This document shows, one piece after another, positions 3,601 to 49,466 of a stretch of 64,000 nt of DNA (position 1 is its first letter; every line of letters starts with the position of its first letter). The stretch is from Mesostigma viride. Taxonomy: Eukaryota; Streptophyta; Mesostigmatophyceae; Mesostigmatales; Mesostigmataceae. The position numbers and the translations under genes are program-made. The DNA lies in contig RPFO01000017.1 of the NCBI GenBank assembly GCA_009746045.1, positions 1,849,452 to 1,913,451 of the forward strand. The letters run 5' to 3'. The notes beneath the pieces are model-generated. The model made no database searches, was not told the origin of the DNA, and saw only the letters and a program-made list of their open reading frames with translations.

Positions 3601-6600
3601 TGGTTGGTTGGTTGGTTGGTTGGTTGGTTGGTTGGTTGGTTGGTTGGTTGGTTGGTTGGTTGGTTGGTTGGGTGGGTGGGCACATGCGTGCACAGGTGAG
3701 ATGGGGTGGGAAGCGGGTGCGACAGAAGCTGTGGCCGCCGGACTGTGGTGTAGCTGTGGGAAAAGGACCAAGACGGTACCAAAACAGCACCAAGACGGGA
3801 CCAAACTGAGGGGGGCGGCACCAGGGCCTCTGCATCACATGCCGCTAGTAGAGCTTTGTGGCACATAGGCCGAGGCAAAAGAGGACACGCATGGGCCCTT
3901 GACACATGGAACGACTGATGCGACGAAGCAGGATATGACGAGTCCCGGCAGGATATACCCCCCCCCCCCCCCCCCCCCCCAAGTCCCAGCAGGATATGCC
4001 TCCCCCCCCCCCCCCCGGCCCAAAGAAGCGCCCCCATGTGAGCACAGGTTTCTGGCCAAAACTGAACCTATTTTTCAGCCTCATTCACGCTCACCAACAA
4101 AGCCGTGCAAAGAGAGGGCATCGCTGTCACTCAGCTACCACCACCACAGCCATATGGCTTCCTCATCACCAAACACAGATGCTTCCCACTGGTATGGCTC
4201 AGCATACTACCGCGCGCAAATGAGAAATTAATTAATGTTTCCCACCCAATCCACGGACTTTGGCAGCAAACGCTGGAAGCATAACAACCACATGAACCGC
4301 CTGCATGCACACCCTGCCCCCTGGTTCACATGGGCCAGCCGGAGCAAAAAAAGAATGAGAACTCCTCTCAGTTTCTCGTGGGTAGTTCACTATGGTGGGT
4401 ACTGGACATTGCTCAAATATCGCGTGATCCTGCTTGCATCCGGCTGTCCAAACCGGCGACTGATTAATAAGCACATATTGTTATATTAGCACGTCTGAGT
4501 AGTTAATTAGCACGCAGACTAACCGGCGATATATGGGGACTGTCCCGGATTAATTAGCACACGTCCACGTGTCGCATGACCGTTTTTATTATTGTGTTCA
4601 TTATTCTACGACTTTTAAGTATGTGACTCTAGGGGGGCAAAGGCACCCATTGCAGAGATAGATGAAATTAAAAAAAATGACGAGTCGACCATTGACCCTG
4701 TGAGTCGACCATTTGACCCTGTCAGTTCATGTGCGGTGCCACCCCATCGTTCCTACCCCTCCCTACCTATCCCTACCCCGACTCACCCCTCCCTTTCGCT
4801 CCCACTCCCTAGCCCTACTACCGCTCCCATCCTAATTCTACCCCACCCCACCTTGAGCAGTTGCATCTTGTGCCTCTCGCCGTGGACGAGCATGACTGCG
4901 CCCGGGTGGCTTTGCCGCACCTGCAGTCGTAGACAGGGGGTGAATCAATGCAGCGAGTAAATAAATACTACTAAATAAAGTAAGGGGATGAAAAAAAAAA
5001 AGTAGACAGGGCATGAAGAGGGGGTAGCATTGGGTGGTTTATGGGGTAAAGGGTGGGGTGGAGGAATACGTGCTGGCAGCCACATTAATTACTTAATTAA
5101 TGATCATGTAGGTACCAATGAAGGAGGTGGGTAAGAATGAATGAACCCTCAACGCCTATACACAATGAGAAGAAGGGAGGGCGCCCTAGCTTCTCTCACT
5201 GCCTCAAGTGGGCAGGCCACAGAGCGCTCTCTCCGCATCATGGCGCGGGCACAACTGTCAGTGCAATAAAGCTTCGGCATAGCAAAAGCATGGCGAATGC
5301 AGCCACATACAGGCCATCAACCAATTGAATGCTTACTTGTAAGTTGTAGACCTAAACTTTGTGCCGCATGACACCCCGCAGCCGGCAGCAGTGTGTCCAT
5401 GCAAGGGAATGTCACAGGAGCGGAGGTGAACAAGTTCGGGACTTTGATGGCCGTGCAACTTGCAGCCAGCAAACAGCGAAGCAAAATCTCATGCAGGCAC
5501 AGGCCAGGTGAAGGGGGACTCGCGTGGGGTGGCGGCCATCCAGCCATCCAGCCATCCAGCCATCCAGCCATCCAGCCATCCAGCCATCCAGCCATCCAGC
5601 CATCCAGCCATCCAGCCATCCAGCCATCCAGCCATCCAGCCATCCAGCCATCCAGCCATCCAGCCATCCAGCCATCCAGCCATCCAGCCATCCAGCCATC
5701 CAGCCATCCAGCCATCCAGCCATCCAGCCATCCAGCCATCCAGCCATCCAGCCATCCAGCCATCCAGCCATCCAGCCATCCAGCCATCCAGCCATCCAGC
5801 CATCCAGCCATCCAGCCATCCAGCCATCCAGCCATCCAGCCATCCAGCCATCCAGCCATCCAGCCATCCAGCCATCCAGCCATCCAGCCATCCAGCCATC
5901 CAGCCATCCAGCCATCCAGCCATCCAGCCATCCAGCCATCCAGCCATCCAGCCATCCAGCCATCCAGCCATCCAGCCATCCAGCCATCCAGCCATCCAGC
6001 CATCCAGCCATCCAGCCATCCAGCCATCCAGCCATCCAGCCATCCAGCCATCCAGCCATCCAGCCATCCAGCCATCCAGCCATCCAGCCATCCAGCCATC
6101 CAGCCATCCAGCCATCCAGCCATCCAGCCATCCAGCCATCCAGCCATCCAGCCATCCAGCCATCCAGCCATCCAGCCATCCAGCCATCCAGCCATCCAGC
6201 CATCCAGCCATCCAGCCATCCAGCCATCCAGCCATCCAGCCATCCAGCCATCCAGCCATCCAGCCATCCAGCCATCCAGCCATCCAGCCATCCAGCCATC
6301 CAGCCATCCAGCCATCCAGCCATCCAGCCATCCAGCCATCCAGCCATCCAGCCATCCAGCCATCCAGCCATCCAGCCATCCAGCCATCCAGCCATCCAGC
6401 CATCCAGCCATCCAGCCATCCAGCCATCCAGCCATCCAGCCATCCAGCCATCCAGCCATCCAGCCATCCAGCCATCCAGCCATCCAGCCATCCAGCCATC
6501 CAGCCATCCATATAAACACGCGCAGCTGGCCCCTCGCGCCATGACAGGGCGGACGGCTGGTCAGGTGCATGCCCCTTCTCGCTGGCAGGCGTGCGTGAGC

Positions 6601-32986: not shown

Positions 32987-35900
32987 ATGAACGCCATGAG
33001 CAAGGAGTTCCTGAATCTGGTGCGGTCTATCGGCGAGGCCAAGTCCAAGTCCGAAGAAGATCGCATCATTCTGTCCGAGCTCGAGACGCTGAAAAAGCGC
33101 CTCGCCGAGCCCGATGTTCCTCGCAAGAAGATCAAAGAGTACCTCATCCGCATGGTGTACGTGGAGATGCTGGGCCACGACGCCTCGTTCGGCTACATCC
33201 ACGCGGTCAAGCTAACCAACGACACCAACCTGATCCTCAAGCGGGTGGGCTACCTCGCGTGCACGCTCTTCCTGGAGGAAGGCCACGACTTCATCATCCT
33301 GATCGTGAACACGCTCCAGAACGACCTCAAGTCGGACAACCATCTAGTTGTCTGTGCGGCCCTGAACACGATCTGCAAGATCATCCACGCAGACGCGATG
33401 CCCGCCGTGCTGGGTCCCACAGTGGAGCTGCTCAACCACCCGCAGGAATTTGTGCGCAAGAAGGCCGTCATGGCGCTGCTCTCCTTCCACCAAAAGGCCC
33501 CCTCCCTCGTCTCCCACTTACTCCCCAAGTTCCGCCAAGCGCTGTGCGACAAGGACCCCTCGGTCATGGCGGCCTCGCTATGTGCGCTGCATGACCTGGC
33601 GTCGTCCGACCCTGGCCCCTACAAGAACCTGGTCCCGTCCTTTGTGAGCATCCTCAAGCAGATCATTGAGCACCGGCTGCCCAAGACGTACGACTACCAC
33701 CGCACACCGGCGCCCTTCATGCAGGTATGGCCATGCTTTTCCATTCAGGTAGGGTGTGCTTTTGATGGAAGTAGTCATGGCCTTGATGCAGGTTGGCGCG
33801 GCTGTTATGCAGGTGTGGCACACTCTTTACAGCTTTCTTGGATTCATGCTCTTTGCCAGATGCAATATCGGATGTCCACATGAAGTTGGAAGAGGGTGAA
33901 GGGTGGGAGCTGTGCGCTTGGGGGGCCAAGGGACTGTCACGGTGGGTGAGTGACAGGGTTGTGGGTGGGGTAAGCTCCTGGCATGTCATCGGGTGAGTAC
34001 AGGCACGTGGACAGTGGGCGTAACGTCACCACGCAACGATGTCTCCACTCCCGGCAGTGGTGGATCGCTATCCTCTGCACCATGGTGCTGGCCGACGTGC
34101 CCCCTACCCAACGTGGTTCCGACACGCTGCTGCCAGGTCTCTGGCTGCTGGCCTGTAGGATGGGAGTCCAGCCATCTGAGGAGCGGTTGCGGCGAAGCCA
34201 TAGACTTCCCGGGGAACGGTGCTGTGGGTTCCACTCCTGCCTCCCCCCCCTGCCCCCCCTGCCCCATGGTCTGAAGACCCTTGGCCCATCGGAAACACAA
34301 GACATCGGAATACCGTGATCTGGGCCAGCCATGCAAACACAAATGAATCTCTGCATCCCTCTAGTGCAGCAAACTGTGCTGCAGGGTACCCTTCTCCCCA
34401 TCTGCCAGCCAGTTAGTAGCGGGTGGCTGACAAATGCCTCGCTATCTAAGTGCTTAGGCAACCGCCTGGTTGGCAAGGTGTGCCCTTGCCTCCGACCGAG
34501 CCCCAACTGCCGCACCCCATTTCCCCCCTTGGATTGCTTCCCCGTTTATATCCTCCTTTCATTACCCTCCCCATCCCTGGGGCCATCTTCCCTCCCACTC
34601 TCCTTTCCCTTCCCTTCCGTCCTTCTTCCCCCCCTGCTCTTGCAACCCTGCCCTGAAGCCCTTCCCCCCCCCACACTAACACCTCACACCCCCTTGTTCC
34701 CCACTCACGACCTTTTCCCTTTCTGGCCCGCGCTCCCTGCTCCCCGTTCCCCCCTACCCCCTATCCCCTACCCCCTACCCCCTACCCCCGCCCCCCACCC
34801 CCCCCCCTTCCCCTCTCCCCCCCGCTTCCCCCTCCCCCAGATCCGCCTGCTCAAGATCCTGGCCCTGCTGGGCGCGGGCGACAAGAGCGCGAGCGAGGGC
34901 ATGTTCTCCGTGCTGGGTGATGTGCTGCGGCGCGGCGACAGCGGCATCACTATCGGCCACGCGGTCGTGTACGAGTGCGTGCGCACGATATGCCGCATCT
35001 GGCCCAACGCAAAGCTGCTCGAGGCGGGCGCGGAGGTCACCTCACGCTTCCTCCGCTCGGGCTCCCACAACCTCAAGTACATTGGGATCGACGCGCTGGG
35101 CCTGATCGTCAAGATCAACCCTAAGTACGCGGTTGACCACCAGCTGGCCGTCATCGACTGCCTCGAGGTGAGGGGCGTCTGCGGATGGTAGCAATAGGCC
35201 GTGTTGCTCTGCTCAGCAAAGCAATCACCTTGGTCATCGACTGCATTAAGGTATGTGGTGTCTGCCGAGGCTGGTGCCATATTCACCCTGGAGCTACATT
35301 TTGTGCCTGCGCGTGCTATCAGTCGTCATCCATGTCCGTGGTGTCGTGAGTTGAGTTTGCCCATGAGGTTTGCTTCTCCTGGGATGGGTGGGGTCTTGAT
35401 GGGTGGTCGTGCCGTGAGCTACCTGCGTCTCCAACAGCTGCTGCTGGCAGCTCGTCGTCACTTAACTGCCTGGAGGTACATGGGATTCTTGTGACCTTGT
35501 CACCTCTACCCATCGAGAGATGTTGGGCCTCTCCATGACAGCCGTCCGCCATGTTTGCCTGCCTGATGATACTTGGGGGCGCTCGTTGGTTGTGATGCAA
35601 TCATGGACACTCGAGGTACCTGGGTTATTCAGATGCCCATGACCATGATGTCTTCTGAGTCATGTTGTGTCGCCAGATGCCAGCGTGGGCTGTAGTGCAT
35701 GCGGAGGGTAGCGGGTGCCAGTTGTTAGACCTAAGACTCGCCACAAGCATGGGTGGTTGCGGTTTCCCTTCTTGCACACGTTTGCCACTAAGTGCACTTG
35801 TTTTTTACTTCGCCCCCCCCCCCCACTTCGGTCGTCTGCCAAGTCCTTGCCTTGGTCGGTTATGTCATTCCTCCCATTTAAAAATTTTCCTTTGGTACGC

Positions 35901-38900
35901 CCGCGCCACCACCACATGGGCGCTTGCTTGGCCAGGACCCCGGCGACATGCTTCCGTGCGCTCGGTGTTGGCTCGGTGCCTCCTTCCCCCCCCCCCCTTT
36001 CATGTCTGTCTCGGCTTTAGGACCCCGACGACAGGCTGGCGTGGCCCCATATTTGCTTCCATGTGGTTGCGTATAATGACTATCCTTCTATGGCCTTGTG
36101 GCCTTGTGTCATTGCGTGCCCCCCCCCCCCCCCTGGCCCTGCCTGCTCCTACTGTCCCAGGACCCCGACGACACGCTCAAGCGCAAGACGCTGGACCTCC
36201 TGTACGCGATGACCAAGCCGGCCAACGTGGAGGTGATCGTGGAGCGCATGATCGCGTACATGCGCTCCACCACCGACACGCACACGCGGGCAGAGATCAT
36301 CGGGCGCGTGGACGAGCTGGCGGAGCGATACGCGCCCAACAACGAGTGGTTCATCCAGGTAACGGCATGCGGGGGGATAGGGGGGATGGGAGTAGAGGGA
36401 TGCAAGCAAAAACTGTACGCACCCAACGAGCGGGTCTTCCAGGTGGGTATTTTAGTGTCCAACAAGCAGCGGTGCGTTGCAGTTTGGAAGTGGCTGTATG
36501 GTCGCTGTATGGTCGCTGTGGCGTGCCAACACATGCCCCTGGCACACGGCGCACGCATTGTGTCCCAGCAATGAACTACCTGGGCGATGTGATGGCCTGC
36601 TTTTTCTGGCACACATTTCCTGCTGGGACACATTTCTTGCGGCCGTTGTCTCTGGCATCTGCATGCACCCCTGTACTGACTCAAGTCCTCCCCCCCGCGC
36701 CCATGTGTGCGCGTGCACAAGGGGCACTCCTCCCATGTGCCACCTTTCCCATGGCCACATGGCATCCCTCTCACCCCCCACACCCACCCCACCCCCTCGA
36801 TCCCCCCTACCTGCAATAAACACGGCAGACGATGAACGCGCTGTTTGCGCTGGGTGGCGACCTGGTGCGTCCCGAGCTGGCACACAACCTGCTGCGGCTG
36901 ATCGCAGAGGGGTCAGGGGAGGAGGATGACGACGCCGACACGCAGCTGCGGGAGTCCGCGGTGAGAGGGGGCGGGGTTAAGGGGCAGGTATGATGGGGTT
37001 GGAGGGTGGGTGGGTGGGGGATCTATAGTGGGAAGGGATGAGGGGGGAATGACCCACCGATGCTTCAAGCTAGATGATTCCCCGAGAGTTCCCGGACCGC
37101 TTCCTCCCAGATAGCATTTTCTGCTGATAGCATTCTTGCCTGATGGCAAACTGTGGTGGTTCCATGGTGCTGTCATCCGTGATGGTGCCGGTATAACTGA
37201 CCTGCTCTCCCACGTGCCCTCATCCGTGCCTAACCTGCTCTCTGTGCCCTCAACCGTGCAAGCGTGGTCTTCCCCCCGCGCTTGCACAGGGCCTTCCCCC
37301 AACCCAAGTTTTCCCCTGCACCCCTCTCCACCCTTGTGTCCCACCTTTCCCTGTCCCCGTCAGGCAAAGCCCTCGTCCACTCAAATGGCAAATGGGGACG
37401 CTTCCGTGCCTACGTACACCCGTGGCTCCGTTCACCCACGTGACACCGGTGATGTCTTTTTTCGTGTGTTCATGGTACCTGCCCCTGCTGTCCTTGCCAT
37501 GCCCTGGACTGCCCAGTGGCCCATTGTGTTGATTTCTTGCATCGTGCCCTGGCCATCTATACATACATGCCGAGGCCCTTATGCCCGAGTATACGGCAAC
37601 CGCGTGTGCCTTCTTACCTTGTTCTCCATCCCCATGCCTTGCTGTTCTTGATCTCCACCCCACCCCCTTGTACTGCTGCCTGCTCTCCCCACGCACCAGG
37701 TGGCATCGTACCTGGAGCTGCTGGAGGAGCCGCAGCTGCCCACCATCCTGCTGCAGGTCATCTGCTGGGTGCTGGGCGAGTACGGCCTGTCTGCGAGCGG
37801 CCTGTCGGCGTCGGAGCTCATCCGCACGCTGGTGGAGATTTCCGAGCGCACATGCGAGGAGCAGCTCACCGTCACGGTATTAATATATTCAGTCCACCGT
37901 CACGATATCCGATAATCTGTTCACCGTCACGGTAGGCAGGGAGGAGAGGTTTCCGATGCAAGACTAGGGTGATGACCTGACCACCGTCACGGTACGCAGG
38001 GCACGTTAACCTGCTAGCGCTTGTGCGGCCCCGTGATGCTCCTTATTGGCGTTTTTGTCGCTGTCTTTTACGATTGGGTTGCCATCTGTGCAGGCTTCTG
38101 ATGGCAGGTGCGGGCACCCCTATAGCAGCCAGATCGCGGAGCCACGAACAACGTTTTTTTAATGCCCGCTGACGATGTTTTTTGAATACCCGCGGCCATC
38201 CTGCGTGCGCATGTCTGTGCTGCTGCCACCTGTCACCTGTCACCTGCAGAGCTTTGCCATCAGCGCGATCCAGAAGGTGCTCGCGCAGCAGCTGGCGCGG
38301 GGAGAGGCCGCCGAGCTGGGTCCCGAGGTGGGCGCGTCTGAGATGGATGTGTGGTGGGGGCCGTGGTAGGCGCGCATGGGGTGGGTGTGAGGTGGGGGGC
38401 GAGGTGGGTGCGTATGGGATGTGGGTGGGGTGGGGACCGAGGTAGCTGGCGTGGGATGGATGTGGCGTGGGGGCGGAGGTCGTCGCGTTTAGGTCAGGTG
38501 TCCGTGTTGTGATGGGGTTGTGAGGCCTGAGGTGGGCATGTGCTGGATGCTGGTGGTACACTGTACATGGTGGGGCAGGGCCGGAGGGCCGTCTTGAATG
38601 CATGCTTTGGGTGCATGCTTAGGGTGCATGCGGGGGAATGGCAGGGGCAGGGGCAGGGGCTGTATTTCCCCATCTGGATGGCTTAACTTCGCAGACCCAG
38701 TTATTGCAAGCCTCGAGTTTTGAGGAACTCTGCAAGCACGAGTTCCCTGAATTTGGAGAGGATGGTTACAGAAACCCAAAGGTTAGAACTCGCGGGCCTA
38801 AAATCGACACTCTTAGCCACACCCAAGAGTGCTCATATGGGCACTTCCCTCGTCTTTGATAGCGCATTTTAGGCTGGCATGGGGTGCTTAGGAGGCGCAC

Positions 38901-41135
38901 CCGCCATAGTCGCAATTGGACCCGCGTAGTCTCACGGAATGGCCTGTAAAGCCAGCGACCTTATCAGCATCGGTTTCATACTATCTTCCACTTCTGGGGC
39001 CCTGTCAAGGGTGAGCCTTCCCCCAATGTGGTCTTAGCCCATGCCTCATGCGTGCCCGCATGCCCCCCCCCCCACACACACACTGCGCGCCTGTATCTAC
39101 TGCACCCCCCGCCCCCAGGCGTCTGCGCTGCTCAAGTCGCTGAAGAAGAGCCAGTCGACGGACCTGCAGCAGCGCGCGTACGAGCTGCAGGCACTGCTGG
39201 CACAGCCCCCGGATGTGATGGTGCAGGCGCTGCCCGAGGACGCCAGCTGCGAGGACATCGAGGTGGGCGTTGTATTGGTTGTACTCAGAGTGGAGGACAT
39301 CCAGGTGGGCATGAGGTTGGCGTGGAGGACATCCAGGTGGGCATTGACAGAATGATTTGCTACTATATACTCAGGTTTGGGACATCGAGGTGGGTGGCGA
39401 GTTGGGCAAGGGGTTGAGTGAGGAGTTCGAGGTGGGTGGGGGCATGCTTGAGGACATCGTGGTGGGCATGGATAAAGTCATGTCCTAGTATCTACTGAGG
39501 GTAGAGGACATCGAGGTGGGTGGGGGCATGCTTGAGGACATCGTGGTGGGCATGGATATAGTCATGTCCTAGTATCTACTCAGGGTAGAGGACATCGAGG
39601 TGGGTGGGCATCAGTGTATGTATGTGCGGCAAGACATCTAGGTGGGTAGGGTGTGTGGCATGGGTTGTACGAGGTCATCAAGGTGGGTGGGCATTCATAC
39701 CTTTACAAACATATCTTCCCTGGGGCGTACATCGAGGCATGTACTGGGTGGGCACAAGCTTGTATCGTTGTGGGTGCGATGCTTAGGTGGGTACTGGGTG
39801 GGTCGCTGCACAATGGTTGCGTGGGGCAGGACACCGCTGTGGGAGTGCCACGGGCTGGGCATGTGGTTTTGTAATCGCTGGTCACTGCCCTTGGCCCCTG
39901 CGTTGCCTTTGCCAATGTCAGTTTGCTCGCTGTGCAACCTGGGGGCTATCATCTTTCACTCTACGTGCTGAGTCCACACCCCGCACGAACATAACCCACA
40001 CCCTCCATTCCCAACCCATCTCCATCCACACCCTCCATTCCCAATTTACCTCCTTCCCCTGCAGGTGGATCCAGCACTCTCCTTCTTGGACGGATACGTG
40101 ACCAACGCAATCACGGCGGGCGCCCCCCGGTACAAGGCCCCCCACGAGCGCGTGCGGTCAGCCAGCGGCGGCGGGCGCTCCGACCGCGACCGCCTCAAGG
40201 GGGCCGCGGGGGGGGCCGAGAGCTCCCTCCGCTTTGAGGCCTACGAGCCCGCGGTCGCGCCCGCGGTCAGCCTGCAGGACAAGCGGGGGTTGCCGCGAGA
40301 GGACGGGGCCGGTGCAGGTGGTCGGGCGGGAGGGGCAGTGGGGGCAGACGCCAGCAGTGCCGCGCTGGCCGGCCTGGCCACGGTCGACCCGATGCTAGTC
40401 CTGCGCTCGGCCGGCGTGGGCGGGGACGCGCCGCCGCTTGGGCCAGGGTCCCTGCGTGGCGCGGGCATGGCTGCGGGGCTTGCGTCGGAGAGCACGTCGC
40501 TGCGCCTCAACAACGTGCAGCGCAAGTGGGGCAAGGAGGGGTTTGTTGCCGCCACGCCGCCACCGCCGCCCGTCGCAAGCGCCTCCTCGTACAGCTCGTC
40601 CTATACCGGAGGAAGCGGTTCATCCTCCTCCTCTTATGGCGGGTTTGCCCCCACGGTTGCCAGCATGTCATCGGGAGGGGCGGGGGGCAGCAGCGGCGCG
40701 TACGTGGGGCCGTCGTCGGTCCCGGACCACCCTGCACCCGTCCCTGAGCGCCACGTGGACACGCGACCCACCGCGGAGATGGCCCACAAGGCTAAGCTGG
40801 CCGCGACGCTGTTTGGGGGGAGCGGCGGGGCGGGAGGGAAAGTGGGCGGCAGCAGGAGCCGGCCGGCAGCAAAACCTGCAGCAAAGGCGGGCACGACGGG
40901 CAAGCTTGCACGGTCTTCTAGCGGGTCCCCGCAGCAGGCGGTGGAGGTTGACCTGATGGGGCTGGACGATGGCGATGAGCCGCCACCGGCAAAGACGGCA
41001 CCCCCAGCAGGCGGGCAGGGTGGTGCGGGATCGAACGACCCATTCTCGTTGTTGCAACAGCTCACATTGGATGGGGGGGCGGGCGCGGGTGGTCAGGCGG
41101 GGAAGCATGGCGGAGGGGACTCCTTGTTGTTATGA
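32987..41135 (+). CDS. AP4E1: AP-4 complex subunit epsilon (large adaptin)
   Basis: Large subunit of the AP-4 adaptor, which sorts cargo at the trans-Golgi network. Exons: 32987-33724, 34841-35167, 36161-36358, 36829-36960, 37700-37876, 38250-38327, 39119-39262, 40065-41135. All introns are GT-AG and phase 0. The product is 954 residues, close to the plant protein. Residues 1-600 form the helical trunk (KEFLNLVRSIGEAKSKSEED, VYVEMLGHDASFGYIHAVK, LPKTYDYHRTPAPFMQ, DLQQRAYELQALL, DASCEDIEVDPALSFLDGY). The rest is a Gly/Ser/Ala-rich hinge with KAKLAATLFGGS, DLMGLDDGDEP and NDPFSLLQQL, resembling plant AP4E; no folded ear domain is evident. Identified as epsilon rather than gamma or alpha by exact trunk phrases. 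The ATG at 32987 was chosen because the family begins just before SKEFL; 32996 is possible. Confidence 0.96.
33736..33818 (+). repeat. Donor echoes in AP-4 epsilon intron 1
   Basis: The exon ends CCCTTCATGCAG then gtatgg. Within 95 bp come CCATTCAGgtaggg, TTGATGCAGgttggc and GTTATGCAGgtgtgg. The rest of intron 1 (33725-34840) is C-rich toward the acceptor and has no gene. Confidence 0.75.
35210..35626 (+). repeat. Donor echoes in AP-4 epsilon intron 2
   Basis: The exon ends GTCATCGACTGCCTCGAG then gtgaggggcgtctgc. Copies: GGTCATCGACTGCATTAAG then gtatgtggtgtctgc (35232), CTTAACTGCCTGGAG then gtacat (35461), and ATGGACACTCGAG then gtacct (35603). Confidence 0.85.
35930..36042 (+). repeat. Acceptor echoes upstream of AP-4 epsilon exon 3
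   Basis: The true acceptor at 36160 reads cccag then GACCCCGACGACACGCTC. Upstream copies read ggccag then GACCCCGGCGACATGCTT (35934) and ctttag then GACCCCGACGACAGGCTG (36015). Confidence 0.88.
36412..36448 (+). repeat. Donor echo in AP-4 epsilon intron 3; acceptor echo before exon 4
   Basis: The exon 3 end CGCGCCCAACAACGAG then TGGTTCATCCAG and gtaacg is echoed as CGCACCCAACGAGCGGGTC then TTCCAG and gtgggt. Near 36565, cccagcaATGAACTACCTGG partly echoes the exon 4 start CAG then ACGATGAACGCGCTG. Confidence 0.75.
37890..38000 (+). repeat. Donor echoes in AP-4 epsilon intron 5
   Basis: The exon 5 end CTCACCGTCACG then gtatta is followed by GTCCACCGTCACG then atatcc, TTCACCGTCACG then gtaggcagg, and GACCACCGTCACG then gtacgcagg. 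Two of the three keep a GT donor. Confidence 0.88.
38328..39118 (+). other. AP-4 epsilon intron 6 with GAG-GTGGG repeats
   Basis: The exon 6 end CCCGAG then gtgggcg is followed by several GCGAGgtgggtg, CCGAGgtagct and CGGAGgtcg-like phrases within 160 bp, probably degenerate echoes. No gene is seen in the rest. Confidence 0.5.
39290..39760 (+). repeat. Long donor echo array in AP-4 epsilon intron 7
   Basis: The exon 7 end GAGGACATCGAG then gtgggc recurs at least ten times over 470 bp. Examples are GAGGACATCCAG then gtgggc (39295, 39327), GGGACATCGAG then gtgggt (39378), GAGGACATCGTG then gtgggc (39453, 39534), GAGGACATCGAG then gtgggt (39503, 39588) and AGACATCTAG then gtgggt (39630). Confidence 0.95.
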
Positions 41136-42009: not shown

Positions 42010-44345
42010 GATTGCAATTATCAAAGAGACAACCAGCGCAGGCCAGAAATCGGGAGAATCCGGACCATGGTAGCTCGAGCCTGCCGTTATCTTTTCCGCG
42101 TTTTCGAGTCGTTCAGGATGATGAAGATGAATGGTGATGGAAATGTGTATCCTTGTGCATTGAAATTATGGCTGGCTTACGTGTGGAGCGACTAGATGAC
42201 CTAGACGGTGGGGCCGGAAACAGCATGCTTGATCAGGGCGTGTGTTTCTAGCCTAACTGGCCGGGAGTGTCTAGTGGTGAGCACCATTGCTGCGATCGCT
42301 CTCCCACCATTTACGAGGAAATACCCGCAAATGGAAAACCACTGAAAAGGTCTAGCTAGTCAGTCATCACGTTAGCCATGCCATGATTCCAAACGTCCAA
42401 GAACTGCACACGGTGCAAAGGCAAAAAGCCGGAGGACAGCACTTTCAAATGTGCGGCGGGAACCAAAAGCCCGCGGATGCCAGAAAACATCGTGTTGCGG
42501 CAGCGACGCGACGATGTGGACAACGAATCCAGTGCCAAGCTCGGAACGGCCGCAAAGGAGATCTGGCATCACAGGGTTCAGATGTGCGGAGATACTATGC
42601 GATCCAGCCGGTCCACGACCTGTTTGTAGAGCTTGTGCCAAGGGGCAGCACCGAACAGATGTGGGTGACGTTGCAAAAAACATCGGACTTGACGGAGCAT
42701 AATGGCTCGGTCATAGTCTTTGACCAATAAACGCTGCAAGAGTTCAACAAGAGTCGTGATGAAATCAACACGATAAGAACAAAGACGGGAAAAACGATGT
42801 AACTGAGAAAGAACAACACCATATTTTGCTGTGTGGGAAAGGAGACTGTGAATATCGGGGTAACGAATAAAAGGAATTTGCTGGTATTTAGGATCCTTGC
42901 GCTTATCATAGATAGCCGTACGCCAGCCCTTCTTGTTATGGGTAATGTTAAGATCGAGGTAATTGCAATGAGTATCCTCCGACGTGAGCTTTAATGTGAG
43001 GGACGCTTGCGGGTAGATGCCAGGCAGACCAGCGGTGATATACAAATGGGTTGCGAAATCAGGGTTGTCGAAAGCGATGACATCATCAATGTATCGACAT
43101 GTATGGATAAAACGCCTGATGAGAACATCATCGTTTGAGGCAATGAGATTCTCCATGAATGCAAGCTCATAAGTGTATAGATAGAGGTTTGCAAGGAGCC
43201 CGGCACAGTTAGTGCCCATAGGGATGCCGATAGCTTGTTGGTATACATTGCCCGCAAAACAGATGAAGGTGTTATCAACAAGATAAGAGATCCAATGGAC
43301 AAGGTCAGCCTTCGTGATAATATAATTATAACCATCCCGCACGATAGCACCTGCCGCGATCCCTGAGAGCCACGTTGCCGTGGGCTTGGTCTGAGAAACA
43401 CGCACGTGCAGGTGGTTGCGCCCGTGAGGCCTACGTGCATACAGACGAGTAAGGAGGCTATCTAAACGAGCTTTCAAATCGTGCAAATCTAGTGTGGTAT
43501 ATAGAGTGGTGAAATCATAGGTGGCTATGGGCATAGGTATACGTTTCTCTGCTGCTGTCTTAGAACGGCTAAGGGCGGCAAGGCGTAGGCGTACTTGGGC
43601 TGAGTCTATGACGATCCAACTACCAGCGCATTCATACCCGGCATTCGACAGCACCTCCACCCATAATGCATTGGCTTCGGGGAGAAGAGCATTCAAAGCA
43701 TGGCAGATGAGTTTCGAGAGAGGCATCAGTGGGGCTGAATGCGACGCAGCAATGGTGCGCAAAGCAACAGGAGTTTTGTGCAGCTTAAGAGTGAGATACA
43801 GATATGGGAACGTAGTGGTGGTGGCGCGTCGCTGCCGCTTAAGGAATGCCCGAGCAAAAATGTTTTGGCTGTGCAGAAAAGCCCGATGAGCAGCGGTGAT
43901 ACTGGCGGTGGACTGTGCACGCTGAACATAGGTAGGGCTGGACGCCAACTCGTGTTGCAAAGTAGCAAGGTAGTGCTTCTTGCATATGAAAGCAAAGTTG
44001 TTGGCACTCTTGTCAACACACGTGATGATTAAGTCCTGCTTGAAGTGGTCAAGAAGTGCTTTATCTGTGGTGTTGAGCCAGGTGGTGCGGTGGACCTGCT
44101 GGAGACGGTAATCAAGCCTGGTGAGACGTGCATTGCATTCGTGAATGACGGCGCGAAACCACGGTTCCATGGCAAGGGGAGCAAGCTGTAGGTCCGTGCT
44201 CATGGCATTGCAAAATTTGCGCAGTGATGTGGAGAGCAGTGCATTCACCTCTTTGGCACACGTGCTCTGGACCCACGGCCGAAACTTGGTGCCTTTGGCA
44301 AAAAGGTCTACAAGCGTGTGGCTCGGCAGGATGCTGAGGTGCAAT
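42010..44345 (-). mobile_element. Penelope-like retroelement
   Basis: One long RT ORF (42578-44344) plus about 560 bp of 3' sequence ending in ...GCTGGTTGTCTCTTTGATAA. A piece of the same 3' sequence (ATTATGGCTGGCTTTCGTGT and following) also lies just upstream of the ORF at 44345-44400, as expected from the tandem or pseudo-LTR arrangement of Penelope-like elements. Other copies sharing only the 3' end lie at 10425, 41578, 46930, 59345 and 63419. Confidence 0.85.
42578..44344 (-). CDS. Reverse transcriptase of a Penelope-like element
   Basis: 588 codons, intact. Palm motifs: IATYDFTTLYTTLDLHDLK, QAIGIPMGTNCAGLLANLYL, CRYIDDVIAFDN (catalytic YIDD), CNYLDLNI, and KYGVVLSQLHRFSRLCSYRV, a pattern characteristic of Penelope-type RTs related to telomerase. 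The N-terminus has the family's 'G-x-KF-x-P' start (KGTKFRPW). No GIY-YIG endonuclease is visible, so it may be an endonuclease-lacking type or the domain is missing from this copy. Start taken at the first ATG; upstream sequence is 3'-end repeat. Confidence 0.88.
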   Translation of the reverse strand: MHLSILPSHTLVDLFAKGTKFRPWVQSTCAKEVNALLSTSLRKFCNAMSTDLQLAPLAMEPWFRAVIHECNARLTRLDYRLQQVHRTTWLNTTDKALLDHFKQDLIITCVDKSANNFAFICKKHYLATLQHELASSPTYVQRAQSTASITAAHRAFLHSQNIFARAFLKRQRRATTTTFPYLYLTLKLHKTPVALRTIAASHSAPLMPLSKLICHALNALLPEANALWVEVLSNAGYECAGSWIVIDSAQVRLRLAALSRSKTAAEKRIPMPIATYDFTTLYTTLDLHDLKARLDSLLTRLYARRPHGRNHLHVRVSQTKPTATWLSGIAAGAIVRDGYNYIITKADLVHWISYLVDNTFICFAGNVYQQAIGIPMGTNCAGLLANLYLYTYELAFMENLIASNDDVLIRRFIHTCRYIDDVIAFDNPDFATHLYITAGLPGIYPQASLTLKLTSEDTHCNYLDLNITHNKKGWRTAIYDKRKDPKYQQIPFIRYPDIHSLLSHTAKYGVVLSQLHRFSRLCSYRVDFITTLVELLQRLLVKDYDRAIMLRQVRCFLQRHPHLFGAAPWHKLYKQVVDRLDRIVSPHI

Positions 44346-48791: not shown

Positions 48792-49466
48792 TTAAGGTTC
48801 AGCAGGCAGCTCGTAGCGGCATGTCGGGCAAGTATTACGCCTTTCCAGCCAGGGACGCAAACAGTCCTCGCAAAAAAGATGCTTGCACGGCATCTGCACA
48901 GCACTGTCTCCCACGGCAAAATCATTCTTGCACACGTTGCAGGCTACGCCCTCGTCCACCTGGGTCTGTTCAACTTTTACCACGGGCAATTCCGCTACTG
49001 CAGACTTCAGCGCCGGGTTAATTCCCGTTACATACTCGCCCGCCAAATCCGGAAACTGCCCCCGCAACAACGAGAAAATGTCATCCAAACCGGAAGGAAA
49101 GAATCCATGCCCGACAGTAGGCTCCATGCGGAAAGGCCCGCCTTGCAAAAATTGAAGGAATGGGAGAAAGCCTTGCGACATATCTCCTCGAACCGGGAAT
49201 TGAAAGTGAGGAAACCCAGCCACGGTCTCAGCTGAAGGACGCGCGAGTGGCGTGGCCTGCTGAACATTGTCAGGCTCCGGTTCCCCTTCCAATTCCTCCA
49301 CAAAAGCGCCCCCGCACCCATTGCACTTAACCTCCCCACATGCGTCGCCGCACACTTGAACCTCATTGTCGCAGGTGTGGCAAAAAAAGCGCCCATCTAA
49401 AAAATTTGCATCTGACGTCCTATCTACTGCATCCATGATGCTAGCCGATCGCACGGAAGCCTCCAT
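48792..49466 (-). CDS. RING finger E3 ubiquitin ligase, RNF126/RNF115-like
   Basis: 224 codons, single exon, intact. N-terminal zinc ribbon with CxxC pairs at C29/C32 and C48/C51 (FFCHTC, KCNGCGGAFVEEL), as in the RNF126/BCA2 family. The middle contains GLDDIFSLLRGQFPD, matching the family's 'GLDAIITQLL' helix. The C-terminal RING spans residues 176-216: C176, C179, C194, H196, C199, C202, C213, C216, with CLRPWLERRNTCPTCR. Position 199 is Cys where the family usually has His, making it C3HC4 rather than RING-H2. It should transfer ubiquitin from an E2 in the cytosol. Start at 49466 gives about 20 residues before the zinc ribbon; an ATG ten codons later is possible. Confidence 0.9.
   Translation of the reverse strand: MEASVRSASIMDAVDRTSDANFLDGRFFCHTCDNEVQVCGDACGEVKCNGCGGAFVEELEGEPEPDNVQQATPLARPSAETVAGFPHFQFPVRGDMSQGFLPFLQFLQGGPFRMEPTVGHGFFPSGLDDIFSLLRGQFPDLAGEYVTGINPALKSAVAELPVVKVEQTQVDEGVACNVCKNDFAVGDSAVQMPCKHLFCEDCLRPWLERRNTCPTCRYELPAEP

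Follow-up and report, generated by a model that had tools for sequence, protein, structure and literature searches.

Six of the seven introns of a predicted AP-4 epsilon gene (introns 1, 2, 3, 5, 6 and 7) carry degenerate copies of the end of the preceding exon, here called donor echoes, which we read as what remains, in worn form, of repeated small duplications straddling the 5' splice junction, mostly tandem, with the outermost donor kept. We put the probability of this reading at about 0.6. The copies match their own exon rather than mismatched ones, lie beside the donors and are in most cases followed by GT; in introns 1, 2, 6 and 7, similarity to the true intron start continues beyond the GT. 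Each of the six introns is backed by at least one statistical test, not all of them by one and the same test.

The gene occupies positions 32987..41135 on the forward strand, as do all of its features given below, of the window (the whole 64-kb stretch of DNA that was analysed; GC content 53%). Conceptual splicing, homology and splice consensus predict eight exons, at 32987-33724, 34841-35167, 36161-36358, 36829-36960, 37700-37876, 38250-38327, 39119-39262 and 40065-41135. All seven predicted introns are of the GT-AG type and in phase 0, and the spliced model reads as one uninterrupted frame, 954 codons long before the stop. In the PDB, exon 1 has AP-4 epsilon-1 as its best match (2e-66) and AP-3 delta as the runner-up (2e-24), and exons 1 and 2 match the Adaptin_N domain. 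It is this homology, together with the unbroken frame and the splice consensus, that makes the eight-exon model the probable one. An earlier account made from the letters alone (the sequence-only reading) had placed the echoes within 32987..40064, correctly so, 32987 being the ATG and 40064 the final base of intron 7. Pattern scans of viral contigs and prokaryote genome contigs yielded no close relative of AP-4 epsilon, nor did a DNA-level scan of phages, and Rfam gave no match at gathering thresholds. No second intron-bearing gene was recognised in the window by reading of the long frames and by Pfam searches on 10 frames, two of which matched, a RING protein and a MYND protein. The RING-finger protein gene (48792-49466, minus strand, 224 codons) is intronless and has a zinc-ribbon match just under the Pfam cut-off. 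Most other long frames of the window resemble, by eye, mobile elements and repeats; an open frame of 588 codons at 42578-44344 on the minus strand has reverse-transcriptase-like motifs by eye and no Pfam match.

The pooled evidence for donor echoes comes from scans with the terminal 12-mer of each exon, run against its own intron and against mismatched introns; exon bases alone were used because the G-rich donor then cannot contribute. At a threshold of at least 9 of 12 bases, the seven exon ends found 21 matches in their own introns, 17 of them followed by GT, compared with 14 matches in 42 mismatched exon-intron pairs (2.3 per seven pairs), of which a single one was followed by GT. At 10 or more of 12 the own introns gave 15 matches, 13 then followed by GT, and the mismatched pairs gave one (0.2 per seven pairs), with no GT. 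The background frequency of GT is 0.072. Control 12-mers from exon interiors (16 offsets, ending 24-69 bases inside the exons) gave means of 2.1 and 0.3 matches at the two thresholds. When intron 7 is left out, own matches number 10 against 2.0 expected at the lower threshold and 5 against 0.2 at the higher. Permutation of the exon-intron pairings led to the same result: the sum observed with 25 exon and 8 intron bases was reached by 2 of 5040 pairings and that with exon bases alone over the whole intron by 20 of 5040, the true pairing included in both counts, while over the first 300 nt exon bases alone ranked the true pairing best of all 5040. In the scans, permutations and tests described here exon 8 was extended to 41138, three bases beyond the stop, which affects control 20-mers only.

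Matches within one array are not independent, and tests made intron by intron therefore weigh more. We compared the exon-only 20-mer at each donor with exonic 20-mers (1361 minus those at the intron's own junctions). Over the first 300 nt the p values for introns 1 to 7 were 0.077, 0.0007, 0.0022, 0.90, 0.0044, 0.29 and 0.0015; over whole introns they were 0.28, 0.0037, 0.0022, 0.99, 0.0074, 0.48 and 0.0015. The Fisher-combined donor p for the first 300 nt is 2e-7, and 5e-6 without introns 6 and 7. A test for multiple copies against dinucleotide shuffles gave p = 0.0005 for introns 1, 5 and 7 and 0.011 for intron 6, and was not significant for introns 2, 3 and 4 (p = 0.12, 0.33 and 0.84). Introns 2 and 3 have few but long copies. 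In an ungapped scan at 12 of 16 bases, the counts of introns 5, 6 and 7 were reached by none of 300 shuffles; introns 1 and 2 had one match each, reached by 18 and 11 of the 300 shuffles, and introns 3 and 4 had none. The five introns to which the sequence-only reading had attributed donor echoes are thus borne out, introns 2, 3, 5 and 7 by exon sequence alone and intron 1 by copy number, and intron 6, which it had called suggestive, is still best described by that word.

The echoes differ in form from intron to intron. Those of intron 1 (33725..33828) comprise three ATGCAG/GT-like ends, the slash marking the junction, at 33748, 33791 and 33812. Their three best matches (11, 10 and 10 of 14 bases) account for the multi-copy p of 0.0005, and all three show intron-side similarity (p 0.005-0.02). 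Intron 2 has a first donor echo at 35233..35268, +83 from the donor, in which 18 exon and 18 intron bases are copied with 15/18 and 13/18 identities (local alignment score 20). A second, at 35448..35489 (+308), starts at exon position -27 and aligns with a score of 18; a weak third echo ends at 35615. Intron 3 has only one echo, a degenerate copy of some 30 bases from the exon end plus GT (36416..36444, score 15), with one 3-nt gap read from the sequence and nothing similar past the GT (intron-side score 0); as this copy ends at +84, the description of the introns as beginning with tandem copies fits intron 3 only loosely. Intron 4 (36961..37699) is the negative case, without a donor echo.

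The remaining introns carry arrays. Copies in intron 5 (37877..37994) end at 37904, 37931 and 37991 and share the ten-base core CACCGTCACG, which is invariant in the exon and all three copies, and the spacers and flanks differ; a tandem row of period 27 spans the donor junction. Intron 6 has a degenerate 38/76-nt tandem array (38323..38549; TRF rows at 38323-38488) that starts in the exon end, with copies ending near 38365, 38403, 38441, 38479 and 38531. This G-rich intron is the weakest of the cases. The array of intron 7 (39263..39740), detected by the 12-mer scan and TRF rows, has the unit GAGGACATCGAG and contains an 84-nt tandem duplication at 39420-39608. Eleven copies reach at least 9 of 12 bases, 10 of them with GT, in agreement with an earlier count of at least ten. 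The introns also share a gradient of composition: from the first to the last fifth, pooled, G falls from 40% to 16% and C rises from 17% to 46%, and the first fifth is G-rich and the last C-rich in all seven, the echo-free intron 4 included.

For a view of what was copied we assembled by hand, from scans, alignments and reading of the sequence, a list of 26 echoes; it omits two of the 21 scan matches (33752, which overlaps the copy ending at 33748, and 37094, in intron 4 and without GT) and adds seven weaker echoes in introns 1, 2 and 6. The exon part of the copies is about 8 to 40 bases long. Intron-side similarity, defined as a match to the true intron start at p <= 0.05 against 200 mononucleotide shuffles with 28 bases compared, was seen in 3/3 echoes of intron 1, 1/3 of intron 2, 0/1 of intron 3, 1/3 of intron 5, 4/5 of intron 6 and 5/11 of intron 7; in arrays it may stem partly from the next copy's core within the 28 bases, and the stretch compared for the one positive of intron 5 does include the next exon core. 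In introns 1, 2, 6 and 7, some or all of the echoes thus include repeated intron sequence, whereas the echo of intron 3 and the two later copies of intron 5 do not. The echo donors are in frame in 7 of 26 cases, three of these without a stop, and 18 of the 26 would add an in-frame stop. Given such mixed frames and stops, the echoes look like non-coding leftovers rather than coding alternatives, and functional in-frame alternative donors were dropped as a candidate explanation.

We propose that the introns grew as follows. A segment made up of some 8-40 bases of exon end and the donor, often with some intron, would have been duplicated, each event setting an extra exon end and GT on the downstream side of the true junction. 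Provided that splicing takes place at the 5'-most copy, the one attached to the intact upstream exon, any additional copy would become intron, the protein would be unchanged and the intron would lengthen from its 5' side; in introns 5, 6 and 7 the duplications would have grown to minisatellite-like arrays. Selection would tolerate such duplications, since the outermost donor, whose exon end is intact, stays in use. From one gene and seven introns, then, we infer that the mutation was tandem duplication, that splicing uses the 5'-most donor and that the copies are neutral. Own-exon specificity, the intron-side similarity in introns 1, 2, 6 and 7, a peak of self-similarity at the junction (see below), the TRF rows lying over the donors of introns 5 and 6, the abundance of tandem repeats in the region and the mixed frames and stops of the echo donors all favor duplication. 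Less easily accommodated are the end of similarity at the GT in intron 3 and, for the most part, in intron 5, the invariance of the intron 5 core while its flanks differ, and the presence of only two of the seven donors in TRF rows.

Work by Eperon in 1993 is said to show that, in mammalian extracts, splicing at duplicated strong donors has a tendency to prefer the intron-proximal (downstream) copy. If that preference is general, echo arrays would be harmful unless this organism chooses differently. A bolder form of the duplication account makes the 5' splice junction a preferred duplication site in this lineage, with the exon end and GT recopied into donor ladders, introns growing from the donor side, under a strict rule that the first donor wins; we regard this as speculative. 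The duplication account itself, if true, already requires the organism to pick the 5'-most among up to twelve similar donors, and the strict rule would also account for the rarity of acceptor echoes.

At the acceptors, two echoes are plain. Both lie in intron 2 and repeat the start of exon 3: CCAG plus 17 exon bases at 35932..35952 (19/21 identical) and AG plus 17 exon bases at 36019..36037 (18/19 identical), the latter preceded by a C/T-rich tract. Over the 12 bases scanned they match at 11/12 and 12/12 exon bases, each after AG, so that these two copies, also reported by the sequence-only reading, are real. Pooled, acceptors exceed mismatched pairs (13 of 5040 permutations), with a combined p of 0.0014, or 0.055 without intron 2, on which the group-level signal mostly rests; the acceptor of intron 4 has p = 0.029. 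Echoes are thus present at 6/7 donors and clearly at 1/7 acceptors (Fisher p = 0.03, rising to 0.10 when intron 6 is left out). An acceptor counterpart presumably succeeds less often because an upstream acceptor copy is easily used by mistake, and the scarcity of acceptor echoes fits order-dependent splice-site choice, seven introns being few. The general proposal that introns lengthen by duplication outward from AG/GT sites therefore survives in part: it describes what is found beside the donors of this gene, and is not supported for AG/GT sites at large, with donors at 6/7, acceptors clearly at one, and the true donors following AG in 5/7 introns and CG in 2/7.

The least improbable of the alternatives is chance overlap with a repeat-rich background, in which arrays occur everywhere, introns tolerate them, some happen to start in an exon end, donors are not preferred and the frozen exon copy eases detection. 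TRF reports 79 tandem-repeat rows that cover 12% of the window, 14% of introns and 0.7% of exons. One of the many arrays of the window, at 5535-6510, consists of 976 bases of the 8-base repeat GCCATCCA in 122 copies with 100% matches. Rows cross two of the seven donors, those of introns 5 and 6, compared with 12% of intron-internal positions, and the seven donors stand moderately above sampled gene positions (p = 0.014) and not above the whole window (p = 0.11). Neither comparison singles out the acceptors (p = 0.18 for the gene, 0.40 for the window). These figures speak for a background origin. Against it, the best downstream self-similarity over -60..+160 peaks at the junction, where 25-mers ending at +5 to +10 have means of 12.9 and 12.7, compared with 6.0-6.7 at offsets -60 to -35. 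Introns 1-3 show little that is comparable elsewhere in this range: values are 13-15 at the junction and 5-10 beyond +25, save 11 at +135 and +140 of intron 2, where the junction value is 14. Selection freezes the exon copy, so exon-derived parts stay recognisable longer than intron-derived ones, and this visibility effect may explain part of the peak. The difference between donors and acceptors also speaks against a background without preference, at the significance given above (p = 0.03, or 0.10 without intron 6).

Unlikely, in our estimation, is short-patch copying, such as polymerase-theta-like templated insertion, or selection that maintains decoy donors or alternative ones, as might serve unproductive splicing. 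Several features point this way. Similarity ends at the GT in intron 3, in 2/3 copies of intron 5 and in the ungapped average; the exon core of intron 5 is invariant; and the U1 consensus match equals or exceeds that of the real donor in 18/26 echo donors, one of these 18 being without GT. The ungapped average comes from 19 echoes of six introns at 9 or more of 12 bases, whose identity is 0.81 on the exon side, 0.34 at +3..+7 and 0.25 at +8..+12. In an ungapped simulation of uniform decay after junction-spanning duplication, run at 16 settings, the observed identity at +3..+12 after the GT fell below the simulated one at 15 settings (p <= 0.03), the last setting giving 0.08. Junction-adjacent indels, visible in intron 1, weaken this ungapped simulation and the echo list is partly hand-picked, so that the result is a tension with tandem duplication and not a refutation. 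The intron-side similarity in introns 1, 2, 6 and 7 speaks against copying or maintenance of exon ends alone, and the mixed frames, with stops in 18 of the 26, argue against a conserved coding alternative.

That the echoes are a trace of intron birth, a further suggestion of the sequence-only reading, now appears very improbable. Under this model tandem duplication of a coding AGGT segment made the introns, and the echoes are leftover copies, with further copies expected at opposite intron ends. By permutation over the seven introns neither expected copy is significant (upstream exon end at the intron 3' end, p = 0.11; downstream exon start at the 5' end, p = 0.085), and there is a hint in intron 6 only, where the start of exon 7 matches the intron from +7 (38334-38345) at 10/12 bases, a match that alone may be chance. 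Exon 8 begins GTGG, as does the donor of intron 7, but 5/7 downstream exons lack a GT start and 2/7 upstream exons end in CG. Low complexity or compositional similarity alone, named beforehand as something that might explain the echoes away, can be set aside for introns 2, 3, 5 and 7, even though all seven introns are G-rich 5' and C-rich 3', because their own-exon specificity contradicts it, because own versus mismatched pairing controls for composition and because echo cores, CACCGTCACG and GTCATCGACTGC among them, lack low complexity; it still stands for the G-rich intron 6, with its exon-only p of 0.29.

If repeated duplication across the 5' junction proves to be genome-wide, the echoes would be a readable record of how introns lengthen. 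The donor ladders would then be a natural experiment on donor choice, revealing the copy that has to be spliced if the gene is to survive, and the asymmetry of donors and acceptors would count as direct evidence from evolution that the choice of splice sites depends on their order. If instead it is limited to this gene, or to genomes prone to repeats, we are dealing with neat but ordinary minisatellites creeping over splice junctions.

Titles and the starts of abstracts were screened for a precedent. Among the matches listed there, in which few subscription journals are covered, none describes a gene with donor echoes in most of its introns. Amoebophrya introner elements have 3-5 nt direct repeats overlapping the exon-intron junction (PMC7789003), and resemble the present case in having direct repeats at exon-intron boundaries. 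Introners form families common to different introns, with inverted repeats, whereas the AP-4 epsilon introns each echo their own exon; in an echo-versus-exon comparison the echoes match their own exon far above other exons and are therefore unlikely to be a shared family. Inverted repeats of the introner type joining the intron ends were not found in the seven introns. Base pairing between the ends was dropped as an explanation, own ends pairing no better than mismatched ones (-93.0 and -91.9 kcal/mol on average).

Intron gain by tandem duplication, the subject of a review (PMC3443670) and of described Drosophila cases (PMC2891723), likewise involves splice sites doubled through duplication of exon sequence; it differs in that the opposite-end copies it leads one to expect are not significant in AP-4 epsilon. 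In a potato RdRp gene a tandem duplication crosses an intron-exon boundary (PMC4974935), and there, as here, the duplication spans a splice junction and takes its signals along. The potato duplication spanned an acceptor and made a new intron, whereas in AP-4 epsilon it is the donors that are spanned, with no sign of a new intron. Human segmental-duplication genes (PMC2812944) have variable internal tandem repeats at exon-intron boundaries, with 27 intron modifications. These are similar in that tandem repeats at such boundaries change what is intron, and the exon-end copies described here do sit downstream of the junction, inside the intron, as in boundary-spanning tandem repeats. The human case concerns new introns or alternative exons in recently duplicated paralogues, while AP-4 epsilon has worn copies in existing introns, at 6/7 donors of a conserved gene. 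Boundary-crossing duplications are thus known from other systems, and it is their recurrence at six of the seven donors of one gene that is unusual.
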